From assembly GCF_000264455.2 (NCBI RefSeq), contig NC_017966.1, positions 620,001 through 684,000 on the forward strand: a stretch of 64,000 nt of DNA, read 5' to 3'. Position 1 is the stretch's first letter. The number at the start of each line of letters is the position of its first letter. The position numbers were made by a program, and so were the translations under genes. The notes beneath the pieces were generated by a model that ran no database searches, was not told the origin of the DNA, and saw only the letters and a program-made list of their open reading frames with translations. This stretch comes from Tistrella mobilis KA081020-065 (GTDB taxonomy: Bacteria > Pseudomonadota > Alphaproteobacteria > Tistrellales > Tistrellaceae). Positions 4,157 to 45,471 of this stretch are shown here, in pieces.

Positions 4157-5002
4157 TCATTCGCCGACCGACAGGCGCGCGGGCTTCCAGCCGCCGTCCT
4201 CGTCGTCGCTGCGGGTCAGGTCCATGCGGTATTCGAACCGGCCGGGCACGTAGAGCGAGACCAGATGGTCGAAAGGCCGCATGGCCTGGTCGTACATGGT
4301 TCGGGTCAGCCGGAGCAGCGCCGCCCCGGGCTCGACCTCAAGAAGCACCGCCAGCCGGTCATCGGCCAACTGCGCCGACAGCTTCTGACGCGCGGCCGCA
4401 ACCGCGAAGCCCGCCTCCTCGAACAGGCCCAGGCGCGGACGATGCGCCAGGCTCCGCTCGGTGAAGGCGGCGGCCGCGGCCGGCAGGGTATGGGTTGCAA
4501 GCAGCGCGAAGGGCCGCCCGTCGGCCGACCGCACCCGCTCGGCCGCGACCAGTTCGGTGCCCGGATCGATTTTCAGTTCCTCGGCGATCGCCGCCGGCGC
4601 CGCAACGCGCGCCAGCGACACCAGCCGCACGCCCGACCGCGCGCCGATGTTCTGAATGGTCGCAATCAGCCCGTCCAGCGGCGCCCGGATCGGCGCCGGC
4701 CGGTAGTGATGCGTCACCATGGTGCCGCGGCCGCGCTGGCGCGACACCAGCCCTTCCGCCGCCAGATCGTCCAGCGCCCGCTTGGCGGTGATCCGCGACA
4801 CGCCGTAATCCCGCGCGATATCCAGCTCCGCCGGCAGCACATCGCCGTCGCGCAGCTCCCCACCCAGAATCTTCTCGCGAAAGATGACATAGAGCCGGTG
4901 ATAGAGCGGCGTCGGCCCCTCGCGCCCCAGCGCCGCCCGCCCGCCTTCCCCGACCGCTCCGCCTTCATCCATGTCGTGGATCTCATCATCCGTGTCGCTC
5001 AT
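4157..5002 (-). CDS. GntR-family regulator, HutC subfamily (UTRA domain)
   Basis: A 281-aa transcription factor. An acidic N-terminal tail of about 30 residues precedes a GntR winged helix (residues ~35-100; LYHRLYVIFREKILGGEL, GVSRITAKRALDDLAAEGLV). The C-terminal half has UTRA ligand-binding features (PFALLATHTLP, ALLRLTRTMYD, FDHLVSLYVPGRFEY), as in HutC-type regulators that sense small metabolites. It heads the hyuB-hyuA-cysteine hydrolase run, so it probably controls it and senses the substrate or product. The upstream region is AT-rich and holds a TGATATATTCATATA stretch (around 5035-5060) that could be its operator. Confidence 0.88.
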   Translation of the reverse strand: MSDTDDEIHDMDEGGAVGEGGRAALGREGPTPLYHRLYVIFREKILGGELRDGDVLPAELDIARDYGVSRITAKRALDDLAAEGLVSRQRGRGTMVTHHYRPAPIRAPLDGLIATIQNIGARSGVRLVSLARVAAPAAIAEELKIDPGTELVAAERVRSADGRPFALLATHTLPAAAAAFTERSLAHRPRLGLFEEAGFAVAAARQKLSAQLADDRLAVLLEVEPGAALLRLTRTMYDQAMRPFDHLVSLYVPGRFEYRMDLTRSDDEDGGWKPARLSVGE

Positions 5003-5398
5003 GGAGGGGAGCTTAGCGCGGGTGATGGCATAATGCTATATGAATATATCATTAGGACATGTCGCTAACGCTTTTGCACTGAAGACCCACGGCTGATCTT
5101 CAGCAAGTGTCAATTTCTCATGTTTGCCGTGGCCACCTGGAGACATTCCCTGTCTTTACTGACTAAAATGCACTTGAGGTCGCTGAGATAGAAAGGCACC
5201 TATTCGGCCATTAGCCAATCATACATGCAGCATGTTGCCCATTCGAAATATATATTCCACAATTAAAGTATCCTAAATTTTATTGCACATGTAAATTTTA
5301 TCTATTTATATTGTTGTTTGTTTACGAAGTACTATAATATATTTCACTCATGCGCACCAAATTACATGGTCATTTATATTATCGAATTTTTCCCAGAA
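5003..5398. other. AT-rich intergenic region, left edge of the island
   Basis: About 400 bp without a convincing gene. Base composition drops abruptly from the GC-rich flank to strongly AT-rich (5220-5400 especially). This marks the left boundary of a probably acquired segment and holds the gntR promoter. I see no integrase, tRNA end or clean flanking repeat here. Confidence 0.6.
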
Positions 5399-6922
5399 TT
5401 AAATTTCTGACATTAATATTCCACGTACATGAAATCCTGCATATTTATCAACCTTCACCGGATGAAAATCCCAGAAGTCGCGGAGCACCTCCGGATGCGG
5501 ATGCCGGTATTTTCGATTGTGCGGATCAGACGAGAAAATACTCACCACCGGAGACAGGTCTGCCGCTAAACCAGAATACCAACTACTCTTAGCCCCGTGA
5601 TGCATGACCTGAAGAAAACCAGCACGCGCAAGTCGGCCTTCAGGCTGATAGTAATTCTTGAACTTCTGGAATCTCTTTTTTGTATTAAGTATCCCATCAC
5701 CCGTATAAATTTGCGCGAACCTAGTACGCACATCCGGAGGACACGGCATTCTCTCATTAAAACAAAAAAATCTATAGTCACCAATTGGACCGGAGTATAT
5801 GAAGAGTGATATGATGTTTCTGTTTCTGGAAGATTTTCCAAAATTTTTATCGTATAATTTTTTCAGTTTATCAAGTTGGTGTTTGCATGTATTTGGTTTG
5901 TTTAAAATACTCCGAACCAAATTCATCGCATTAGTTTTGAATTGATCATTAAGCTTCGGTAACATCGAGGCATCGTTATAAGGGAGGAACTCCCAATCAG
6001 AGGCGGCTGATATGACACCACCTCGTTTTAGATAATGCACATTTGCATTTACGAGCTTAGTGAATAACTCATCCTGTGCCTGATCAGGAGGAGAGGCCAC
6101 TTCGAACTTTATCGAAACCTCCTCAGATTCCTCTCCATCTCGCACGCCTCCATCTGGCACGGGCCCGATACGCGGAGATGGCGCTTCGTCATCTGACTCG
6201 GAGGGCAGCACAAAGACGATCTCGCCTATATCGCTGCCGTCCAAGCCCCTGAGGTAACTAACAGGGTCTATATAGAAACCAAACTCAGCATCCCCGGATG
6301 AGACCCCTTGCTGAATTGCCAAAATAAGACGCTGCAGAGGTGTGAGATATGGCAACAATATCATCCTAATCTGAGATTCCTGCACAAGATGCGAAAATCC
6401 GCTGATATGATCATTGTCAAAATGTGAGAGTATAACGAGATCAAATCTTGAAAATCTAAGACATTCTCTTTGTCTATTGCAATCTTTTATAGAATCATAC
6501 AATAAATCTAAACTAGACGACGTTCCACAATCGTAAACCCAATTAAAAAAAGGACGGCCGTTTTTTACTATAGCGCCAGAAGAAAATAGACCTTGGCCCA
6601 CAGGCCACCAGTCCAGAAAAAGACATGGGCTGCTATATTGTGACGAAGTCGGAACGCTATATCTCAACGCAAATGATGTCGCAGCCGGACCATTCTCCAG
6701 TTCGCGAATGAGCATAAAATCTCGCACCATCGCTTCCTGTGCCGGGAAAATCGCGTTGAAGCAGAGGCCTTTTCGTATCTGTCCAATCAGCCGTTGACTC
6801 AGATCGCGATCCGGGCGCGAAAAATAAGCCAGGATCTTCTGATCCGTTAATCGCGGCGTGATGTTAAGCATCCCCTTTATAAGGCTGATTTCATAATTTG
6901 ATAGGAATTTCATGGATTTCAT
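5399..6922 (-). CDS. ComEC-like metallo-beta-lactamase-fold protein
   Basis: About 507 aa. Starting at ATG 6922 is favoured because AGGAGG lies 4 bases upstream; an ATG at 6955 lacks a site. Residues ~95-110 contain a PVGQG motif like the DVGQGDA of ComEC/Rec2-type domains, then VYDCG. The metal-binding motif SHFDNDH follows near residues 167-172 (an HxDxDH variant). Towards the C-terminus MHHGAKSS and a HPHPEVL segment match the later metal and substrate motifs. This suggests a soluble hydrolase, possibly nuclease-like; no membrane segments are obvious. The N-terminus carries a short helix-turn-helix-like stretch (DQKILAYFSRP). Codon use is AT-rich, unlike the flanks. The HEPN gene lies upstream on the same strand. 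Confidence 0.75.
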   Translation of the reverse strand: MKSMKFLSNYEISLIKGMLNITPRLTDQKILAYFSRPDRDLSQRLIGQIRKGLCFNAIFPAQEAMVRDFMLIRELENGPAATSFALRYSVPTSSQYSSPCLFLDWWPVGQGLFSSGAIVKNGRPFFNWVYDCGTSSSLDLLYDSIKDCNRQRECLRFSRFDLVILSHFDNDHISGFSHLVQESQIRMILLPYLTPLQRLILAIQQGVSSGDAEFGFYIDPVSYLRGLDGSDIGEIVFVLPSESDDEAPSPRIGPVPDGGVRDGEESEEVSIKFEVASPPDQAQDELFTKLVNANVHYLKRGGVISAASDWEFLPYNDASMLPKLNDQFKTNAMNLVRSILNKPNTCKHQLDKLKKLYDKNFGKSSRNRNIISLFIYSGPIGDYRFFCFNERMPCPPDVRTRFAQIYTGDGILNTKKRFQKFKNYYQPEGRLARAGFLQVMHHGAKSSWYSGLAADLSPVVSIFSSDPHNRKYRHPHPEVLRDFWDFHPVKVDKYAGFHVRGILMSEI

Positions 6923-36720: not shown

Positions 36721-36736
36721 GTTCAGATGTCAGAAC
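36721..36736. other. Candidate parS site 1 (near-perfect palindrome)
   Basis: GTTCAGATGTCAGAAC, two bases different from the perfect 16-bp palindrome GTTCTGACGTCAGAAC found at 40532 and 43273. It lies in the gap between the kinase gene and repA. Confidence 0.5.
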
Positions 36737-36800
36737 CGCCGCGGCGTGCGGTAACGCAGGCTGCGGGATCTTTCGCGCCGCATGGATCGCCGGCGCGAGG

Positions 36801-37778
36801 TCAGGCGCGCTTCAGGCGGCTCGGCAGTTTGACCGCGACGCTCGACACCGCCACCGACGGTTTCGAGGGCTTCAGCACCAGGCCGCGGCCGGAAGCCTCG
36901 ACGTTGGCTTCTGGATAGACGGCGAGCACGTCCTTCAGCACTTCCTTCAGGCGGAAGGCCAGAACCCGGTGGCCGCTCTCGCTGCCGAAATGATCCGACA
37001 GCGCATGCCAGGGCACGGTGATCTCGCGCTTCAGCGCATGCAGCCGATAGGTCAGCCAGACATAGAGATCGAGGGCGAGGCTCGAATGCTTCAGCCGGGC
37101 GATCGCCTCTTCCGACAGCGGCACCGAGTGTTCCATCAGATGCTCGAAGAAGGCTTCGGAGAGCTTCACATGCCGCACCCATTCACCGCCGGTGCGGAAC
37201 AGGTCCTCGGCATCGCTGTCATCGCGCCACAGATCCATGCCGTCGACGATCCGCTGATCGGCCAGTCGCGCCTCGGCGCTGCCGCGTTCGAAGCGCATGG
37301 TGAACTCACACCGGGCGATGCGTAGTGCCTGCTCGCGAACCGGCGCATAGGAACCGCGCGGACCGCCCGAGGTCGACAGGCCCATCTTGCGCAGCCAGCT
37401 GGCCATGGTCGGCCCCAGATCGACCACCTGGCTCTGGCTGCGCACCGCCTCGGTCTGGAAATAGATCATGATCAGCCGCGCCTTGGTGCCATAGGGCACG
37501 CCGATGTCGACGATCTTGTCCTTGAGCGGCAGGATGCCGGGGCGGATGATCAGCTGATAGGCGCCGTTGCGGCGGACCCAGGGCTCCAGCGGATTCTTCG
37601 GCTCACGATGCGGCAGCGCTGCCTGGGCGAAACCCGAATGGAGATAATTGATCGTCTCGTTCTCGAGCGACATCATCTCGTGGGCCCAGCGCACCCGCCG
37701 CCGCTCGGCGGCCGAATCCGCCGTCGCCATGACCTGTTCAAGGCCGTGAAGCATGAGCTGCTGATGCACGTCCGCCAT
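36801..37778 (-). CDS. repA: Replication initiator, plasmid RepA family
   Basis: 325 aa. ATG 37778 has GGAGG 5 bases upstream. Matches plasmid-encoded RepA: LIIRPGILPLKDKIVDIGVPYGTKARLIMIYFQTEAV, LGPTMASWLRKMGLSTSGGPRGSYAPVREQALRIARCEF, and a C-terminal winged-helix-like ALDLYVWLTYRLHAL. The initiator is expected to bind the iterons in the region directly upstream (37966-38736) and open the origin. It is transcribed away from parAB, which sits on the other side of the iteron region. Confidence 0.88.
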   Translation of the reverse strand: MADVHQQLMLHGLEQVMATADSAAERRRVRWAHEMMSLENETINYLHSGFAQAALPHREPKNPLEPWVRRNGAYQLIIRPGILPLKDKIVDIGVPYGTKARLIMIYFQTEAVRSQSQVVDLGPTMASWLRKMGLSTSGGPRGSYAPVREQALRIARCEFTMRFERGSAEARLADQRIVDGMDLWRDDSDAEDLFRTGGEWVRHVKLSEAFFEHLMEHSVPLSEEAIARLKHSSLALDLYVWLTYRLHALKREITVPWHALSDHFGSESGHRVLAFRLKEVLKDVLAVYPEANVEASGRGLVLKPSKPSVAVSSVAVKLPSRLKRA

Positions 37779-37965
37779 ATCGACCTCCGGGCTCACGCAC
37801 CGGGCGCCATGCTCCTCACATGGTCGTGCCCCGCGCATGGTTTCGGCCGGCCCCTGCCGAAGGGGCGACCCGTTCATGCCTGATCCGTCACGATCCGACT
37901 TTACACAGGACGGGCCGCCGGACGGAAGTCCGTCAGGCCCCCGCAACGGCGCCGCACCACGAATC

Positions 37966-38736
37966 CGTTACAAGTTCAGCGATGCTGCCGCGCCCCGCCG
38001 TCGGATGATGACGCGAGGATGACCACCGTTTCAAGTTCAGCGTTGTTGCCGCATCGTCGCCTCCACCTGTCGTTCCCGAGCTGTCGTTGCCCCACAGATG
38101 ACGGATATCCTCGGTTTTCCACGCTGAACTCGTAACGTTCGGGGGGGGTCTGTCGGCCGGCTTTCGCTGAAAACGCAACGTATCGGCGCTGATCTCGATA
38201 CGGCGCGGGCCCGGCTTTACGCTGAACTCGAATCACCTGCCCCGGTTATCCACGCTGAACTCGATACCCCTTCCTATAGAGAGTCCCCTATAGATCTTTC
38301 TTACCGATAGGGTGACGCCGCATGGTACATGCCATCAGGGTCCTGACGCCTCCCGCCCCATCTCAACGACCTCGGACAAAGGTCTGTGATGCCAGCCAAA
38401 ACGGGAGACCTGCATCAACCCCTCCCCCCGCATCCCAAGCCATCACCCGGCAGTCGGGTACCGGGTTTCGTCCACAGCCGATCGCCGATTTCGACGCTGA
38501 AGTCGATACGCCGTACCACGTCGTGACGCGGTCGTCTTCACGCTGAATTGGTAACGCCCGGTCCCCTCCCCTCCCCTGCGGCCCGCAGCCGAAGCGTTAC
38601 GAGTTCAGCGTCGGGAAGCACGGGATTCTGCGGGACTCCGGCTCTTGCGGCACAGCTCTCGCTGATTTTGAAACGCCCGCCGCCCGATCTTCAGGCATCG
38701 ACCAGATTGTCGGACTCGGACGCTGAATTGGTAACG
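37966..38736. repeat. Origin iteron array, 12 copies of a 16-bp motif
   Basis: Consensus CGCTGAACTCGTAACG with variants (for example CGCTGAATTGGTAACG, CGCTGAAGTCGATACG). First bases: 37966, 38027, 38122, 38165, 38187, 38220, 38253, 38495, 38541, 38595, 38660, 38721; those at 37966, 38027 and 38595 are inverted. Spacing in the central group is 43, 22, 33 and 33 bp, close to whole helical turns. Together with repA and parA on either side this is the replication origin. The rest of 37779-38948 shows no gene. Confidence 0.85.
38246..38294. other. DnaA-box-like site and AT-rich repeat in the origin
   Basis: TTATCCACG (38246-38254), one base from the DnaA box TTATCCACA, overlaps the iteron at 38253. 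Immediately after lies the most AT-rich part of the origin with direct repeats CCTATAGA at 38273-38280 and 38287-38294. This is a candidate unwinding region. Confidence 0.5.
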
Positions 38737-38948
38737 CCCGGCCTGCGACCGATGGGCGCGGCCACATCAGGAATCAGGTCAACCATCAACTTCGCGATTG
38801 ATGCGTTGATGGCGGCGTGCGATGCTGTCGGCCGAACGGTAACGGGGACCGCGCCCCCTCGAGACCGGCTTCCATCCCGTCACGCTCCAGCCGGCCGCCG
38901 GCTGGCCATCATCCGATCCGGAAAGGCTCCCCTTATGAGGCTGTCCCG

Positions 38949-39989
38949 ATGAACGGCGAACGCATGCGCGAACTTCGCCAGCAGCTGCGCTTCAGCCAGG
39001 CCGACCTGAAGGAAGCCCTGAACCAGATGCTTAGTCGCAGCTATGACAAGCCCAAGATTTCGCGCTGGGAAAACGGCCGCGATCCGATCCCGGCCGATGT
39101 CTCGATGGCGCTGAACCGCCTGGTCGAAGGCAAGGGGCGCGAGGCGCGGACCATTGTTTTCGCCAATCAGAAGGGTGGGGTGGGCAAAACCACCAGTGCG
39201 CTGAACCTGGCCTATGCTCTCAGCCGGGGCGATCACCGGGTGCTGCTGGTCGATATGGACCCTCAGGCCACCGCCACAGTCGCCCTTCTGGCCGACGGCG
39301 CTGTCGAAGCCTATCGCCAGCGCCGGACCATGGCGCAGGTCATCCTGGGCGATGTGCCGATCGCCGAGGTCATCATCAAGGCCGGCGAAGAAATCATACC
39401 CGACCGGGCGCCGCTCTGTGATCTTGCCGCCAGCCATATCGATCTGGCCGAGACCGATGGCCGGCGCGAACCCGGCTTCGACATCACCCTGCGCGAAGCG
39501 CTGGAGCAGGTGCGCGACCGCTATGACTTCATCGTCATCGATGCGCCGCCCAATCTGGGCATGCTGACCTGGATGTCGCTGGCGGCCGCCGACGACGTGA
39601 TGATCCCGGTGCGCACCGAACCCTACGATACCATGGGCGTCGGCCTTATTCTCGGCACCATCAACAAGGTGCAGCGGCGACTGAACCCGGCCCTCCGGCT
39701 GGCCGGCATCCTGCCCACCCAGTACGGGCGGCGGAAATCGGTCGACCGCGAAGTGCTGGCCCATCTGGTCCAGGCGATGGGCGATATCGCCCCGGTGCTG
39801 GAGCCCGTGCCGAACAGCGCCGTCTTTGGCCATGCCGCCCGCAACGGCCGCATCGCCCTCGAAGCGTCGCCATCCAGTGCCGCACCCTCGGTCTATCTGC
39901 GACTGGCCGCCGGCATCATCGGCGACACCCCCCTGCCCCGCGCTGATGTCGATGTCAGCTATGCCGGCATTGATGAGGACGAGGTCTGA
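38949..39989 (+). CDS. parA: ParA partition ATPase with N-terminal HTH
   Basis: 346 aa. Residues 1-60 are an XRE-like helix-turn-helix (MRELRQQLRFSQADL, KPKISRWENGRDPIPADVSMAL), as in type Ia ParA proteins that repress their own promoter. The ATPase has Walker A NQKGGVGKTTSALNL near residue 76, Walker A' VLLVDMDPQAT, and Walker B FIVIDAPPNLG. It moves the replicon using ATP-dependent binding to nucleoid DNA together with ParB. Its stop overlaps the parB start by one base. Confidence 0.95.
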   Translation: MNGERMRELRQQLRFSQADLKEALNQMLSRSYDKPKISRWENGRDPIPADVSMALNRLVEGKGREARTIVFANQKGGVGKTTSALNLAYALSRGDHRVLLVDMDPQATATVALLADGAVEAYRQRRTMAQVILGDVPIAEVIIKAGEEIIPDRAPLCDLAASHIDLAETDGRREPGFDITLREALEQVRDRYDFIVIDAPPNLGMLTWMSLAAADDVMIPVRTEPYDTMGVGLILGTINKVQRRLNPALRLAGILPTQYGRRKSVDREVLAHLVQAMGDIAPVLEPVPNSAVFGHAARNGRIALEASPSSAAPSVYLRLAAGIIGDTPLPRADVDVSYAGIDEDEV

Positions 39990-40891
39990 TGGCTCCGCGA
40001 CGCAAGGCCCCCTCCCCCATTCTCGGCGCCGTGCGCGAGATGATCGCCGATGCCTCCGACACGCTGGTGACCGAGAACAGTCGGTTCAAGCACACTTTCG
40101 AAGTGGCGATCGACAAGATCAGCCCGGACCCGGATCAGCCGCGCAAGCATATCGACGACGAGGCGATCGCCGAGCTGGCCCGCACCATGGAGGAGCACGG
40201 CCAGCTGCAGCCGATCCTGGTGCGGCGCGATCCGGCTGACCGGCGCCATTACGTCATCGTCGCTGGTGAGCGTCGCTACCGCGCCGCCCGGCTGAATGGC
40301 TGGCCCACGCTGCTCGCCATCGAGCATGATGCCGATCCTGAAATCGCGGCGCTGATCGAAAACCTGCAGCGCGTCGACCTGTCGCCGGTGGACGAGGCAC
40401 GGGGGCTTGCCCGCCTGATCGAAGGCCGCGGCTGGAGCCAGGCCGAGGCGGCTGGCGTCCTGGGCAAGGCCAAGAGCGAGATCAGTGGCGTGCTCCGGAT
40501 CCTCACCTTGCCGGATGATCTGCTCGATGCGGTTCTGACGTCAGAACTCACCCTGCCCAAGAATGTACTGGTCGAACTGGCTCGCATCGAGACCCCGGCC
40601 GTCCGTGACCGGCTGGTCGCCCTCGCCTTCGACGGCAAGCTGACGGTCCGCGCCCTCCGCGCCGCCCGGGCCGAGGATGACGGCAAGCCGCCAAGGCTGC
40701 CCGAGCACGACGCTGAAGTTGAAACGGCCGCCCCGCGCACGGCGCCGGGCAAGCTGTCGCTGCGGCAGCTCGATCGTCTGGCCCTTGCCCTTGAAGCCGC
40801 CGCCCATCGCGGCACGCCCCTGAGCGCTGCCGAGCGTGAGCGTCTCGAAATCGTCCAGCATCATATCGAGGCCCTGCTCAGCGGAAGCTGA
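39989..40891 (+). CDS. parB: ParB partition protein
   Basis: 300 aa. The N-terminal ParB/Srx domain (ISPDPDQPRKHIDDEAIAELARTMEEHGQLQPILVRR, then VIVAGERRYRAAR with the CTP-binding GERR motif) is followed by a central helix-turn-helix region (EARGLARLIEGRGWSQAEAAGVLGKAKSEISGVLRI) that should bind parS. The gene carries both an iteron (40711-40726) and a perfect GTTCTGACGTCAGAAC palindrome (40532-40547) inside its coding sequence. It is translationally coupled to parA. Confidence 0.95.
   Translation: MAPRRKAPSPILGAVREMIADASDTLVTENSRFKHTFEVAIDKISPDPDQPRKHIDDEAIAELARTMEEHGQLQPILVRRDPADRRHYVIVAGERRYRAARLNGWPTLLAIEHDADPEIAALIENLQRVDLSPVDEARGLARLIEGRGWSQAEAAGVLGKAKSEISGVLRILTLPDDLLDAVLTSELTLPKNVLVELARIETPAVRDRLVALAFDGKLTVRALRAARAEDDGKPPRLPEHDAEVETAAPRTAPGKLSLRQLDRLALALEAAAHRGTPLSAAERERLEIVQHHIEALLSGS
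40532..40547. other. Candidate parS site 2 (perfect palindrome)
   Basis: GTTCTGACGTCAGAAC, a perfect 16-bp palindrome within parB. The GTT...AAC ends and central CG match the general form of known parS sites. Confidence 0.6.
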
Positions 40892-40920
40892 CGCAGAGCG
40901 GCGACGCTGAAGTTGAAACG
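40711..40920 (+). repeat. Two iterons at the end of parB
   Basis: CGCTGAAGTTGAAACG occurs twice, at 40711-40726 inside parB and at 40905-40920 just after its stop. The two copies are identical. The second overlaps the stem of the parB terminator by 5 bases. Confidence 0.75.
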
Positions 40921-40945
40921 GCAGGGCCTTCGGGCCCTGCCGTTT
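40916..40945 (+). terminator. Terminator of the parAB operon
   Basis: AAACGGCAGGGCC-TTCG-GGCCCTGCCGTTT, a perfect 13-bp stem with a TTCG tetraloop ending in TTT, 24 bp after the parB stop. It could serve in both directions. Confidence 0.85.
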
Positions 40946-41013
40946 GTCGTTGCGGTGTCTCGCTTCCGGATCTCATTCCAGGCTGGACCGGCCGCGTGGA
41001 TGCCTCCCTTGCA

Positions 41014-41556
41014 TCAGCCGATGCGTTTGGTCATAAAGACCCGCGAGAACCCGTTATCGATCCGGCGCCCGGTCTCGACATAGCCGTGGCGCGTATAGAT
41101 CTCGACATTCCGTGCCATCAGCACATGGGTGTAGAGCCGGACCTCCCGAAGCTTCAGCTCCGCCGCCCGGGCTTCTGTGAAGGCGAGCAGCTGACGGCCG
41201 AGACCGGTGCCCTGGGCCGAGGGCGCCACTGCGATGCTGTGCAGGAGGAGATGGTCGGTGTCTGGGATCAGGATGACCAAGCCAACCGGAGCCGGCCCGG
41301 TTCCGACCGCCGGACCGGTATCTTCCGCCAGCCAGACCTCGATATCCGGATCGGCGAGCAGGGCAGGGACATCGTCGCCCATCGGCCCGGGCTCTCGCCC
41401 GATCACCGGGATCCAGGGGGCGTAGGCGGCCGTCGTGATATCGATGATCGCTGCGGCGTCGTGAAGCGTCGCCCGGCGGAACGCCGGCGCTGGTGGCTGG
41501 TGGCACGACACCCGGGGGCCGGCCCCGGTGCCGTCCGGCAGGTCGATGGTCATCAT
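41014..41556 (-). CDS. GNAT-family N-acetyltransferase
   Basis: 180 aa. GNAT fold: N-terminal FRRATLHDAAAIIDIT, the acetyl-CoA loop LLLHSIAVAPSAQGTGLGRQLL (Q-x-x-G-x-G/A), and C-terminal ARNVEIYTRHGYVETGR. It transfers an acetyl group to an amine; the target is unknown. It is convergent with parB across the terminator, inserted between the two iteron clusters. Confidence 0.92.
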   Translation of the reverse strand: MMTIDLPDGTGAGPRVSCHQPPAPAFRRATLHDAAAIIDITTAAYAPWIPVIGREPGPMGDDVPALLADPDIEVWLAEDTGPAVGTGPAPVGLVILIPDTDHLLLHSIAVAPSAQGTGLGRQLLAFTEARAAELKLREVRLYTHVLMARNVEIYTRHGYVETGRRIDNGFSRVFMTKRIG

Positions 41557-41717
41557 GTCCGTCCTCGGCAGCGCCGTCCTGATCTGGAAAGCCGGGCAGG
41601 GGCGGGCGATGCGATCACCCGGCCGCTACGTCATCATAGAACCAATCGGGGCCCGGCTTCCTGCGTCAACCGGCTTCCTGCGTCAAACTGCCCGGGATCT
41701 GCGGTACGGGCGGGCCA

Positions 41718-42078
41718 CGCTGAACTTGTAACGCCGGGCCGATGAAACACCGGGTTTGGCGTATCAGCTTCAGCGACGCATTCCGCATGGCCACCGGCGG
41801 CGCTGAAGACGATACGGCGGCGCTGCGTTCTGATGTCAGAATGGTAACGCTGAACGAACGGCGAGGGCAGGCCATGACCGATGGCATCCGATAAGGCGTT
41901 GCGTTACGAGTTCAGCGTTGGAAAGAAGGCTGTAGGGTCTGAAAGGGTGTTTGCAAACAGAGCTGCTGGGATCCGCCCCGGGCATCTCCGCGCCCTGAAA
42001 CAGGACATCAGGGCCCGATAATGATCAAGGCGACGGTCTGCCGTATCAAACTCAGCGCCTGGCGTTACGAGTTCAGCG
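41718..42078. repeat. Second iteron cluster, six copies
   Basis: The 16-bp motif at 41718, 41760 (inverted), 41801, 41902 (inverted), 42042 (inverted) and 42063 (inverted). The last two are 21 bp apart. The region 41557-42175 holds no gene; besides these motifs it carries the parS candidate at 41827. It lies 3 kb from the main origin array, on the far side of parAB. Confidence 0.8.
41827..41842. other. Candidate parS site 3 (near-perfect palindrome)
   Basis: GTTCTGATGTCAGAAT, two bases from GTTCTGACGTCAGAAC, located among the second iteron cluster. Confidence 0.5.
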
Positions 42079-42175
42079 TTGCCGAAGAGCGCGGTTATGG
42101 GTCGCGGGTCTTGACGTCGACGGCCGGGAGCCGGAGAGTGACGGCGCGTGCTGCCCATCAAAAGCCGAGCCCTTG

Positions 42176-42706
42176 ATGTCCCTGCCCCATGCCCTGCTTA
42201 CCTCGCTGCTGGAGCGGCCCTGTTCCGGGTCGGAACTGGCCGGCCGGTTCGACCGCTCGATCGGCTATTTCTGGCAGGCAAGCCATCAGCAGATCTACCG
42301 GGAACTCTCGCGGCTGGAGGCGGGGGGATTGATCGAGGCGCTGGAACCCGAGGCGAGCCGTGGCCGGCCGCGGGCCTACCGGGTGCTGCCCGCCGGACGC
42401 GCCGAGCTTGCACGCTGGGTGGATGAGGTGTCGGAGCCGAGGCCGCTTAGGGATGAATTGATGGTGCGCCTGCGCGCTGCCGCGGTTCTGGGCACCACCG
42501 GCCTTGCGGAGGACCTCCGGAGCCGGTTGCAGCGGCACCGCGACATGCTGGCCCGCTATCGCGAGATCGAGGCCCGGGACTTCACGCCGCCGCCGGCCAC
42601 GCAGGATGCCCGCCTTCGCCATCTGGTGCTGAAGGCGGGCATCCGGCACGAGAGAAACTGGATTGACCTCTGTGTCGATGCGCTGGAGATTCTGTCGGCG
42701 GAATAA
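42176..42706 (+). CDS. PadR-family transcriptional regulator
   Basis: 176 aa from ATG 42176. PadR winged helix LPHALLTSLLERPCSGSELAGRFDRSIGYFWQASHQQIYRELSRLEAGGLIE, followed by a C-terminal helical dimerisation domain (Vir-type). It lies directly after the second iteron cluster and 86 bp before the end of a convergent SnoaL-like gene. The target is unknown; the dienoyl-CoA reductase promoter with its two palindromes is one possibility. Confidence 0.92.
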   Translation: MSLPHALLTSLLERPCSGSELAGRFDRSIGYFWQASHQQIYRELSRLEAGGLIEALEPEASRGRPRAYRVLPAGRAELARWVDEVSEPRPLRDELMVRLRAAAVLGTTGLAEDLRSRLQRHRDMLARYREIEARDFTPPPATQDARLRHLVLKAGIRHERNWIDLCVDALEILSAE

Positions 42707-42792
42707 CCCGCCGACAGCGCCTGTGCGCGGCGGGGCCCGGGGCGCGGATCAGGGTGCAGAGGGGCCATGGGGCTCCGAAGAAGGGCCGTGGG

Positions 42793-43239
42793 TCAGGTCT
42801 TGGCCTTGAATGCCGGCAGGCTGCCGCCCACGCGCGCCGCCATGCGGGCACCCAGCGCCTGCAGGCCGCTCATCGGCCGGACCATGACCTCGAAATCCCG
42901 GATCAGCCCGTCTTCATCGAAACGGATCATGTCGATGCCCTTCAGGCTGCGGCCGTCGACTGTGGCCGAAAATTCCAGTACCACATCCAGCCCATCATCC
43001 GACACGAAGCTGCGGTGATAGGTGAAATCCTCGAAGACCTCGATGACATTGCTCAGCGCCAGCACCAGCGCCTCGGCAGAGGCATAGGCGTTATGGGCCA
43101 TGGGGGAGCGGAAAACCGCCTCCGGATGGGCAATCTCGCGCAGGCGGCCGAGATCATGAGCCTCCATCATCTGATGCCAGAGCTGAAGCGAGGCTTTGAC
43201 GGCGGGGGCGGCGGCTTCGGGGATGTACAGAGTGGTCAC
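42793..43239 (-). CDS. SnoaL-like (NTF2-fold) protein
   Basis: 148 aa cone-shaped NTF2 fold: LQLWHQMMEAHDLGRLREIAHPEAVFRSP and VVLEFSATVDGRSLKGIDMIRFDEDGLIRDFEVMVRPM are typical of SnoaL-2 members. These act as isomerases, cyclases or ligand-binding proteins. It is downstream of, and on the same strand as, the dienoyl-CoA reductase (43 bp gap containing a parS candidate). Confidence 0.88.
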   Translation of the reverse strand: MTTLYIPEAAAPAVKASLQLWHQMMEAHDLGRLREIAHPEAVFRSPMAHNAYASAEALVLALSNVIEVFEDFTYHRSFVSDDGLDVVLEFSATVDGRSLKGIDMIRFDEDGLIRDFEVMVRPMSGLQALGARMAARVGGSLPAFKAKT

Positions 43240-43272
43240 GGCGCGTTTCCTCGTATCGGTCTTGTTGGGTAA

Positions 43273-43288
43273 GTTCTGACGTCAGAAC
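43273..43288. other. Candidate parS site 4 (perfect palindrome)
   Basis: GTTCTGACGTCAGAAC again, perfect, overlapping the stop codon of the dienoyl-CoA reductase gene. Confidence 0.6.
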
Positions 43289-45393
43289 GTCGCGGCGAGG
43301 CGTGTGCCCTGGTCGATGGCGCGCTTGGCGTCGAGTTCGAGGGCCAGATCGGCACCGCCGATCAGATGAACCGTGCAGCCGGCCGCCTCCAGCGCCGCGG
43401 CCAGGCTGCGCTCCGGCTCCTGTCCGGCGCAGATCACCACGCTGTCGGCAGGGATGACCCGGGTCTCGCCGCCCGATGTCACCACCAGCCCGTCATCGTC
43501 GATCCGCTCATAGGTGACGCCGCCGGTCATGGTCACGCCGCGGGCCTGCAGGGCCGCACGGTGGATCCAGCCGGTGGTCTTGCCGAGCCCGGCGCCCGGC
43601 CGGCCGGCCTTGCGCTGGAGCAGCTGCACCTGGCGTACGGCGGGGCGGGGGGCCGGCTTGCCCAGCCCGCCCGGCGTCGCGGGGTTGGTGTCCACGCCCC
43701 AGTCACGGGCAAAATCTTCGATGCTGTCGGTCCCTGTGCCATCGGGTCCTGTGCCATCGGGTCCGTGGCCTTCGCCATGGGTCAGCAGCTCGGCGACGTC
43801 GAAGCCGATGCCGCCGGCTCCGATGATCGCCACCCGATCCCCCACCGGCTTGCGGTCGCGTAGCACATCCAGATAGCCCAGCACCTTCGGATGGTCGCGC
43901 CCGGCAATCTCGGGCGCGCGCGGCACCACGCCGGTCGCCAGGATCACGGCGTCGAAACCGCCGACGGCCAGCTCCTCCGCCGTCACCCGATGGCCGGACC
44001 GCAGCGCCACTCCCGTCACCTCGATCCGCTTGCGGAAATAGCGCAGCGTCTCGTGGAACTCCTCCTTGCCCGGGATAGTTTTGGCCAAGTTGAACTGGCC
44101 GCCGATCTGGTCGTCGGCTTCGAACAGCGTCACCTGATGGCCGCGTTCCGCGGCGGTGGTGGCGAAGGCGAGTCCGGCCGGGCCGGCGCCGACCACGGCC
44201 AGCCGCTTCGGCGCCGCGGTCGGCGCAATCACCAGCTCGGTCTCGTTGCAGGCCCGCGGATTGACCAGGCAGGAGGTGATCTTGCCACCGAAAGTATGGT
44301 CCAGGCAGGCTTGGTTGCAGCCGATACAGGTGTTGATTTCATCGGCGCGGCCGGTGCGGGCCTTGCGCACGAAATCGGCATCGGCCAGGAAGGGGCGGGC
44401 CATCGACACCATGTCGCAGGCCCCTTCGGCCAGCAGTCGTTCGGCCAGCTCAGGCGTGTTGATCCGGTTGGTCGCCACCAGGGGCAGGCCGACCATGCCC
44501 TTCAGCCGCTGCGTCACCCAGGCGAAGGCGCCGCGCGGCACCCGGGTCGCGATGGTCGGCACCCGCGCCTCGTGCCAGCCGATGCCGGTGTTGATGATGG
44601 TGGCGCCGGCCGCCTCGATGGCACGGGCCAGGATCGCCACCTCCTCGAAGGTCGATCCGCCCTCCACCAGATCCAGCATCGACAGACGGTAGATGATGAT
44701 GAAGTCGGGGCCGAGCTTTTCCCGCACCCGCCTGACGATCTCGACCGGGAAGCGGATACGGTTCTCGTAAGGCCCGCCCCACTCGTCGTCGCGGTGGTTG
44801 GTGCGCGCGGCGATGAACTCGTTGATCAGATAGCCTTCCGATCCCATGATCTCGACGCCGTCATAGCCGGCCTCGCGGGCGAGGGCGGCGCAGCGCACGA
44901 AATCCGCGATCGTCTCCTCCACCTCTGCACCAGTCAGCGCATGGGGGCGGGCAGGGTTGATCGGCGCGCGAACCGCACTCGGCGCCACCAGATCAGGATG
45001 ATAGGCATACCGGCCGAAATGCAGGATCTGCATGGCGATGCGGCCGCCTTCGGCATGCACCGCGTCGGTCACGATCCGGTGGCGGCGGGCCTCGTCGGTG
45101 GTGGTCAGCATCGCCCCGCCGGGCAGCGGCCGGCCCCGTTCATTGGGTGCGATGCCGCCGGTCACGATCAGCCCCACTTCGCCGCGCGCCCGTTCGGCAT
45201 AGAAGGCGGCCATGCGCTCAAAGCCATGCGGCGCCTCTTCCAGGCCCAGATGCATCGAGCCCATCAGCACCCGGTTGGGCAGGGTCACGAAGCCCAGATC
45301 CAGCGGCCGGGTGAGGGCGGGGAAGGCGGATGAGAGGGGAGGGAAGGGTGGGGTAGGGGAGAGTGGGGTGGGATTGGACAGATCGACGGTCAT
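43282..45393 (-). CDS. fadH: 2,4-dienoyl-CoA reductase-like flavoprotein
   Basis: 703 aa, OYE/FadH type. An N-terminal FMN barrel (LPNRVLMGSMHLGLEE, QILHFGRYAYHP, GYDGVEIMGSEGYLINEFI), a 4Fe-4S cluster binding stretch CIGCNQACLDHTFGGKITSC, and a C-terminal FAD/NADPH domain (VVGAGPAGLAFATTAAERGHQVTLFEA, AIIGAGGIGFDVAELL). It reduces conjugated enoyl thioesters. A linker with the repeat GPDGTGPDGTGTD, coded by a 15-bp repeat near 43730-43772, is an unusual insertion. The N-terminus starts with a Pro-rich leader. Two matching operators lie just upstream. Confidence 0.9.
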   Translation of the reverse strand: MTVDLSNPTPLSPTPPFPPLSSAFPALTRPLDLGFVTLPNRVLMGSMHLGLEEAPHGFERMAAFYAERARGEVGLIVTGGIAPNERGRPLPGGAMLTTTDEARRHRIVTDAVHAEGGRIAMQILHFGRYAYHPDLVAPSAVRAPINPARPHALTGAEVEETIADFVRCAALAREAGYDGVEIMGSEGYLINEFIAARTNHRDDEWGGPYENRIRFPVEIVRRVREKLGPDFIIIYRLSMLDLVEGGSTFEEVAILARAIEAAGATIINTGIGWHEARVPTIATRVPRGAFAWVTQRLKGMVGLPLVATNRINTPELAERLLAEGACDMVSMARPFLADADFVRKARTGRADEINTCIGCNQACLDHTFGGKITSCLVNPRACNETELVIAPTAAPKRLAVVGAGPAGLAFATTAAERGHQVTLFEADDQIGGQFNLAKTIPGKEEFHETLRYFRKRIEVTGVALRSGHRVTAEELAVGGFDAVILATGVVPRAPEIAGRDHPKVLGYLDVLRDRKPVGDRVAIIGAGGIGFDVAELLTHGEGHGPDGTGPDGTGTDSIEDFARDWGVDTNPATPGGLGKPAPRPAVRQVQLLQRKAGRPGAGLGKTTGWIHRAALQARGVTMTGGVTYERIDDDGLVVTSGGETRVIPADSVVICAGQEPERSLAAALEAAGCTVHLIGGADLALELDAKRAIDQGTRLAATF

Positions 45394-45414
45394 CCTCAGC
45401 GCGCTCCGGCTTTT

Positions 45415-45471
45415 ATGCAACCAGTTGCATGAACTCTAGCCGGAGCCGGAGGGTGGCGCAACTGGTTGCAT
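45415..45471. promoter_or_regulatory. Two palindromic operators before the dienoyl-CoA reductase
   Basis: ATGCAACCAGTTGCAT (45415-45430) is a perfect inverted repeat. GCGCAACTGGTTGCAT (45456-45471) is the same with two mismatches in one arm. Their centres are 41 bp apart, about four helical turns, which suits cooperative binding. They also lie near the end of the lipase gene. Confidence 0.6.

Follow-up and report, generated by a model that had tools for sequence, protein, structure and literature searches.

A candidate parS palindrome on a 690-kb replicon of Tistrella mobilis, with one copy at a fixed codon of parB

Introduction

What does a 16-bp palindrome repeated around the replication and partition genes of a secondary replicon do, and why is one of its copies written inside parB? 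These questions are raised by GTTCTGACGTCAGAAC, found in a window of 64 kb (the whole stretch of DNA analysed, C3:620001-684000) from Tistrella mobilis KA081020-065. Contig C3 has 690,188 bases in a five-contig genome of 6,506,598 bases. An earlier note on this DNA had proposed the palindrome as a candidate parS. We tested four expectations of a parS: that it tracks its ParB, is confined to that ParB's replicon, is kept while its flanks change, and co-varies with the recognition helix. All four largely hold, with exceptions in some off-contig places and in the breakers of a residue-base rule described below.

Results

The rep/par locus

The parA gene (38949..39989, plus strand, ATG start chosen by homologues) encodes an AAA_31/ParA ATPase with an N-terminal XRE-type HTH, and parB (39989..40891, plus strand) a 300-residue protein with ParB_N and HTH_ParB domains. 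The Pfam matches are PF13614 (5.8e-47), PF02195 (8.5e-23) and PF17762 (4.5e-13), and the window ParB aligns with solved Spo0J/ParB/Noc chains with a best E of 1.5e-30. Its translation contains VAGERRYRAA and LIENLQR, within which we take GERR and ENLQR to be the ParB CTP-site motifs. GERR is given as a CTP-binding motif in the abstract of PMC12207404. The locus thus has the ParA-type Walker ATPase and the adjacent parB with ParB_N and HTH of a type I ParABS system, together with palindromic sites near par that are confined to the replicon.

The repA-like initiator gene (Pfam RepA_C; 36801..37778, minus strand) was given an ATG start of our choice; a longer ORF, 36801-37946, is listed. Eighteen copies of an iteron-like repeat, ACGCTGAACTCGTAACGC, lie around rep/par at 37965..42079 (at most five mismatches). 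These repeats are probably initiator sites, distinct from the palindrome. One repeat copy is in the 3' part of parB and one directly after it, and four more weak matches occur elsewhere in the window. A PadR-like gene (42173-42706) and a SnoaL-like gene are also nearby.

Copies of the palindrome

Two perfect and two two-mismatch copies are present, at the positions that the earlier note had given. One perfect copy, a candidate intragenic parS, lies inside parB at 40532..40547, where it covers codons 182-186 and the first base of codon 187 and encodes V-L-T-S-E-L. The other, also a parS candidate, lies at 43273..43288 and overlaps the TGA stop (43282-43284) of the minus-strand ORF 43282-45420. 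The two-mismatch copies are GTTCAGATGTCAGAAC at 36721..36736 (plus strand), between the histidine kinase gene and repA, and GTTCTGATGTCAGAAT at 41827..41842 (plus strand), between the GNAT and PadR genes; both are intergenic with respect to the accepted genes. The note's statements that there are no more copies, that both perfect copies touch coding sequence and that the classical parS is absent likewise stood: the 64 kb hold no additional match at up to three mismatches, and none to the classical TGTTTCACGTGAAACA at that threshold. In 100 dinucleotide shuffles of the window the mean number of matches was 0.11 and the largest 2, versus 4 observed.

A search of the whole genome, as the note had advised, found five places at up to two mismatches, all on C3, and none with a reversed-pattern control. 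Equal density on all replicons, which the note had named as grounds for giving up the reading, was not seen. The fifth place, C3:340523-340538, has one mismatch and lies outside the window, 320 kb from the parB copy; on a circular C3 this would be 46% of the way round. It is intergenic, flanked by two minus-strand ORFs (putative aldehyde-dehydrogenase-like and putative DUF1338-like). The sole genome match to the classical parS at up to two mismatches is on the chromosome, C1, near the chromosomal parAB. No ParB_N match was found on C2 (692,456), C4 (1,126,962) or C5 (77,500) of this genome (G000). Among the loci taken from these contigs (L208-L211), C4 has a ParA-like ORF next to an ORF (4848-5795) that matches no Pfam family, and C2 has two VirC1-type ParAs.

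Conservation in close relatives

The palindrome was found at up to one mismatch in all three genomes of the family comparison (own, same species and same genus). These genomes share it at five matching positions, the site 320 kb away among them. The copy between the histidine kinase gene and repA has 16 identical bases at the same position in each genome; the copy between the GNAT and PadR genes has two mismatches in G001 and three in G002. At the far site the 16 bases of G002 are unchanged relative to the other two, while most of the ~25 preceding bases and the following sequence differ. In parB, 126 of 300 codons differ among the three genomes, with no difference in the 16 bases. Given V-L-T-S-E-L and the codon usage of 11 window genes, the probability of exactly these bases is 1.2e-4, because GTT and TCA are rare (14 of 274 Val and 6 of 178 Ser codons). 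These figures uphold the earlier view that the copies are conserved despite coding constraints.

The palindrome tracks parAB

Across 61 parB loci from plasmids and genomes, not dereplicated, the palindrome was scanned for at up to two mismatches. Of the 28 loci with a ParB identical to that of the window at 44% or more, 25 have it (exceptions L178, L180 and L186); of the 33 below that value, one does (L026, a variant). Counted from the start of parB, it is often found at ~+543, in parB itself, or at about -1075, directly upstream of parA; the Roseomonas position is about +907, directly after parB.

A whole-genome search of 22 genomes at up to one mismatch found the palindrome in 16. Of its 61 places in these genomes, 50 share a contig with the matching parB. 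The other 11 fall on different contigs of draft assemblies, including one in G454, which is without this ParB type among the ParBs examined there. In the five palindrome-bearing assemblies of at most five contigs, all 19 places are on the parB contig. TGTGCAACGTTGCACA is present in 6 of the 22 genomes, all of one genus, and 12 of its 13 places are beside a parB, ten of these beside examined parBs.

Other ParBs have other palindromes

A search for recurring palindromes at more distant parB loci gave other site types in the same places: TGTGCAAC, TGTGTGAC, TATCCGAC, TATGCAAC, TGTCTGAC, CATACGAC, TATTCGAC, TGTAAAAC, GTTCTGAA and GTTCCGAC. Sites of the CTTTCGAA type occur in L178 and several Azospirillum loci; at several other distant loci this search yielded nothing convincing. 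The L178 ParB (G455:C318) is 54% identical to the window ParB in the best segment and has a different recognition helix, with E162. Its palindrome, CTTTCGAATTCGAAAG, occupies the same codon slot and is also found upstream of parA with one mismatch. The L178-type palindrome recurs after parB in distant Azospirillum ParBs, likewise with E162.

One ParB residue predicts one base

R173 of Caulobacter ParB bonds guanine 1 of parS and Q173 prefers adenine 1, and the R-G and Q-A pairs are published ParB/Noc contacts, according to portions of PMC7383237. In our alignment the equivalent of R173 is K162 of the window ParB (codon 40472-40474). A scan of genome contigs for ParBs gave at least 80 loci, mostly distant, chromosomal-type ParBs, from which L033-L037 and L090 joined the main set. 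This set of 61 loci was reduced to 41 representatives at 90% identity, two of which had no assignable palindrome; L032, L183, L196 and L198 were assigned from one copy only.

A rule pairing residue 162 with the second base of the palindrome (R with G, Q with A, any other residue with T) fits 36 of the 39 assigned representatives, in a set whose palindrome list was compiled after the recurring-palindrome searches and from which the 'other-T' part was itself learned. The pairs are R-G in 11, Q-A in 6, other-T in 19 and R-T in 3 (L024, L025 and L034, the rule breakers). At the level of palindrome classes the rule holds for 13 of 14 (p 2e-5 by permutation, indicative only given shared ancestry); one of the 14 is the known chromosomal parS (L090).

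A held-out set of 50 new loci, 36 after dereplication, was searched by a fixed discovery procedure blind to the residue. The procedure returned a recurring palindrome for 18 of the 36 loci and none for the other 18. All 18 palindromes fit the rule, L213 and L251 with weak support. With these two rows excluded there are 12 classes, seven of them new, and all 12 fit (p 4.5e-5, again indicative only given shared ancestry).

A site at a fixed codon of parB

In 22 of the 41 representatives a palindrome with at least seven of eight pairs lies in parB codons 178-190, versus a mean of 2.6 and a largest value of 7 in 500 synonymous-codon draws. Only 32 of 925 other windows of the same parB genes hold such a palindrome. 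Of the 22 palindromes, 20 are found again outside parB with no more than two mismatches, and all 20 are in frame 0; those of L179 and L206 do not recur and were left out. The held-out set adds seven, for a total of 27 dereplicated ParBs with a site inside parB. In 26 of these the site starts, in frame, at the codon aligned with V182, although neither its sequence nor the residues it encodes are constant. Eight types of half-site occur, and the encoded residues vary with them: VLTSEL, VLNSEH, LSNSKV, CVTSHT, CATLHL, YPTSDK, YATSHR and SRTSDS. The exception, L259 of the gammaproteobacterium Nitrosococcus, aligns two residues later. On this plasmid (pNWAT01 of Nitrosococcus watsonii), AGTCGGACGTCCGACT is in parB near the same slot and occurs again after parB.

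The slot sits between the recognition-helix codons and the codon aligned with Caulobacter 201. In the window parB, the segment from the recognition-helix codons (159 on) through the palindrome to codon 190 spans 40463..40558 (plus strand) in our alignment. About half of the representatives are without an in-gene site, and some of these have the same palindrome elsewhere (for example L022, L025, L032, L034 and L035). As a control for classical parS inside parB we used 75 chromosomal-type loci (L038-L112, including L090) among the matches listed; classical parS is in the locus of 55 and inside parB in one, L045, near codon 232 and in another frame. A ParB tree built without the DNA-binding columns, poorly resolved at depth, calls for 13 or more changes of palindrome class and eight or more of the in-gene trait.

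Discussion

Clustering, replicon confinement, linkage to parAB across families, conservation against changing flanks and co-variation with the recognition helix support the candidate-parS reading of the earlier note. On this sequence evidence, GTTCTGACGTCAGAAC very probably serves as parS for a type I ParABS system of the 690-kb secondary replicon. The copies, in all likelihood a parS set, are ordinary in kind, and unusual in that one of them occupies a codon slot common to several specificity classes.

Could another protein read the palindrome? An operator for ParA's own N-terminal XRE-type HTH, autoregulating the par operon, is very unlikely. ParA does have this domain and many relatives carry a copy just upstream of parA, but there is none at the window parA promoter. 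The HTH cores of the window (RSYDKPKISRWENG) and L178 (RSYDKPKLSRWENG) are similar, with 1 of 14 residues different, although their palindromes are not the same, L188 and L190 have several palindrome copies yet a ParA, with starts as called, that is without the HTH domain, and the rule that predicts the base rests on a residue of ParB. A replication element read by RepA would fit the clustering of the palindrome around rep/par among iteron-like repeats. It is most improbable as an explanation, as the iteron-like repeat is a different sequence and the palindrome follows the ParB helix. An operator for a neighbouring regulator such as the PadR-like protein would fit the two copies on either side of the PadR and SnoaL-like genes. 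We find this scarcely credible: L021-L023 have the palindrome next to parAB, yet their gene tables, which are incomplete, show no PadR gene there, and the in-parB and 320-kb-distant copies do not fit a local operator. Chance or coding constraint is no more believable: short palindromes do arise in GC-rich DNA, as in the 32 other parB windows, but the shuffles and synonymous draws fall below the observed counts and 20 of the 22 in-gene palindromes recur outside parB.

As a parS, the palindrome can be compared with known systems. Chromosomal ParB-parS (TGTTTCACGTGAAACA) and Noc-NBS, both treated in PMC7383237, share with it a 16-bp palindrome, a ParB fold with HTH, and a residue aligned with Caulobacter 173 that predicts base 1 (R-G, Q-A). 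The window differs in having T at base 1 of the site and K in its ParB. Identity with the chromosomal parS was considered and rejected on the searches above. The parS of repABC plasmids of alphaproteobacteria is given as GTTNNNNGCNNNNAAC, and in Rhizobiales parS is placed at the 5' end of repB, in passages of PMC9040568. These sites resemble ours in their GTT...AAC ends and in their multiple copies, of which some lie a long way from par and some in genes. The centre, in contrast, is CG in both perfect copies of the window and GC in repABC; the window initiator is of the RepA_C family on the strand opposite parAB, and a GNAT gene, not repC, follows parAB. Membership of the repABC group was rejected on the CG centre and on the RepA_C assignment of the initiator near parAB.

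If the palindrome is a parS, ParB dimers would use their HTH to recognise the 16 bp, where they would load as CTP-dependent clamps before spreading, and ParA would move the ParB-coated DNA so that each daughter cell receives one copy. Four of the replicon's copies lie within 6.6 kb around rep/par, and the fifth is 320 kb distant. With one of them embedded in parB, at a fixed codon that closely follows the recognition helix, the reader and its site would be inherited as one piece.

A parS within the parB reading frame has precedents in B. subtilis parS-359 (excerpt of PMC4442127) and SCP1 parB1 (excerpt of PMC13245405). These are single cases, whereas here one codon and frame are common to palindromes of differing sequence. 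In open-licence PubMed Central literature we found neither these palindromes nor a parS at a fixed codon that is rewritten with specificity. A further proposal, for which we see the case as evenly balanced, is that a large family of plasmid ParBs reserves the codon just past the recognition helix as a centromere slot. The cognate parS would be rewritten there whenever ParB specificity changes, and the protein stretch (VLTSEL, CATLHL, YPTSDK, CVTSHT, LSNSKV and others) would be dictated by the DNA site and not by protein function. If so, a tract of ~100 bp would hold the specificity residues together with their target, one short exchange could switch reader and site at once, and ParB clamps would be placed on their own gene, possibly as feedback on parAB.

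Our analysis offers a testable parS for a secondary replicon. The relatives form a natural series of putative ParB-parS pairs, with one base predictable from one residue, and the seven new palindrome types of the held-out set belong to this series. Diversification of ParB specificity, and avoidance of cross-talk among several replicons in a cell, thereby become open to direct test. A site fixed within the gene suggests how a reader and its DNA target could stay linked while both change.

In Tistrella and Azospirillaceae, lone copies also occur on the parB contig at distances of tens to hundreds of kb from the gene (L020 9924, L018 9971, L019 9953; G452:C4, G453:C4, G447:C11 and G448:C17). In G001, as an exception, the lone distant copy sits on a different contig from parB.
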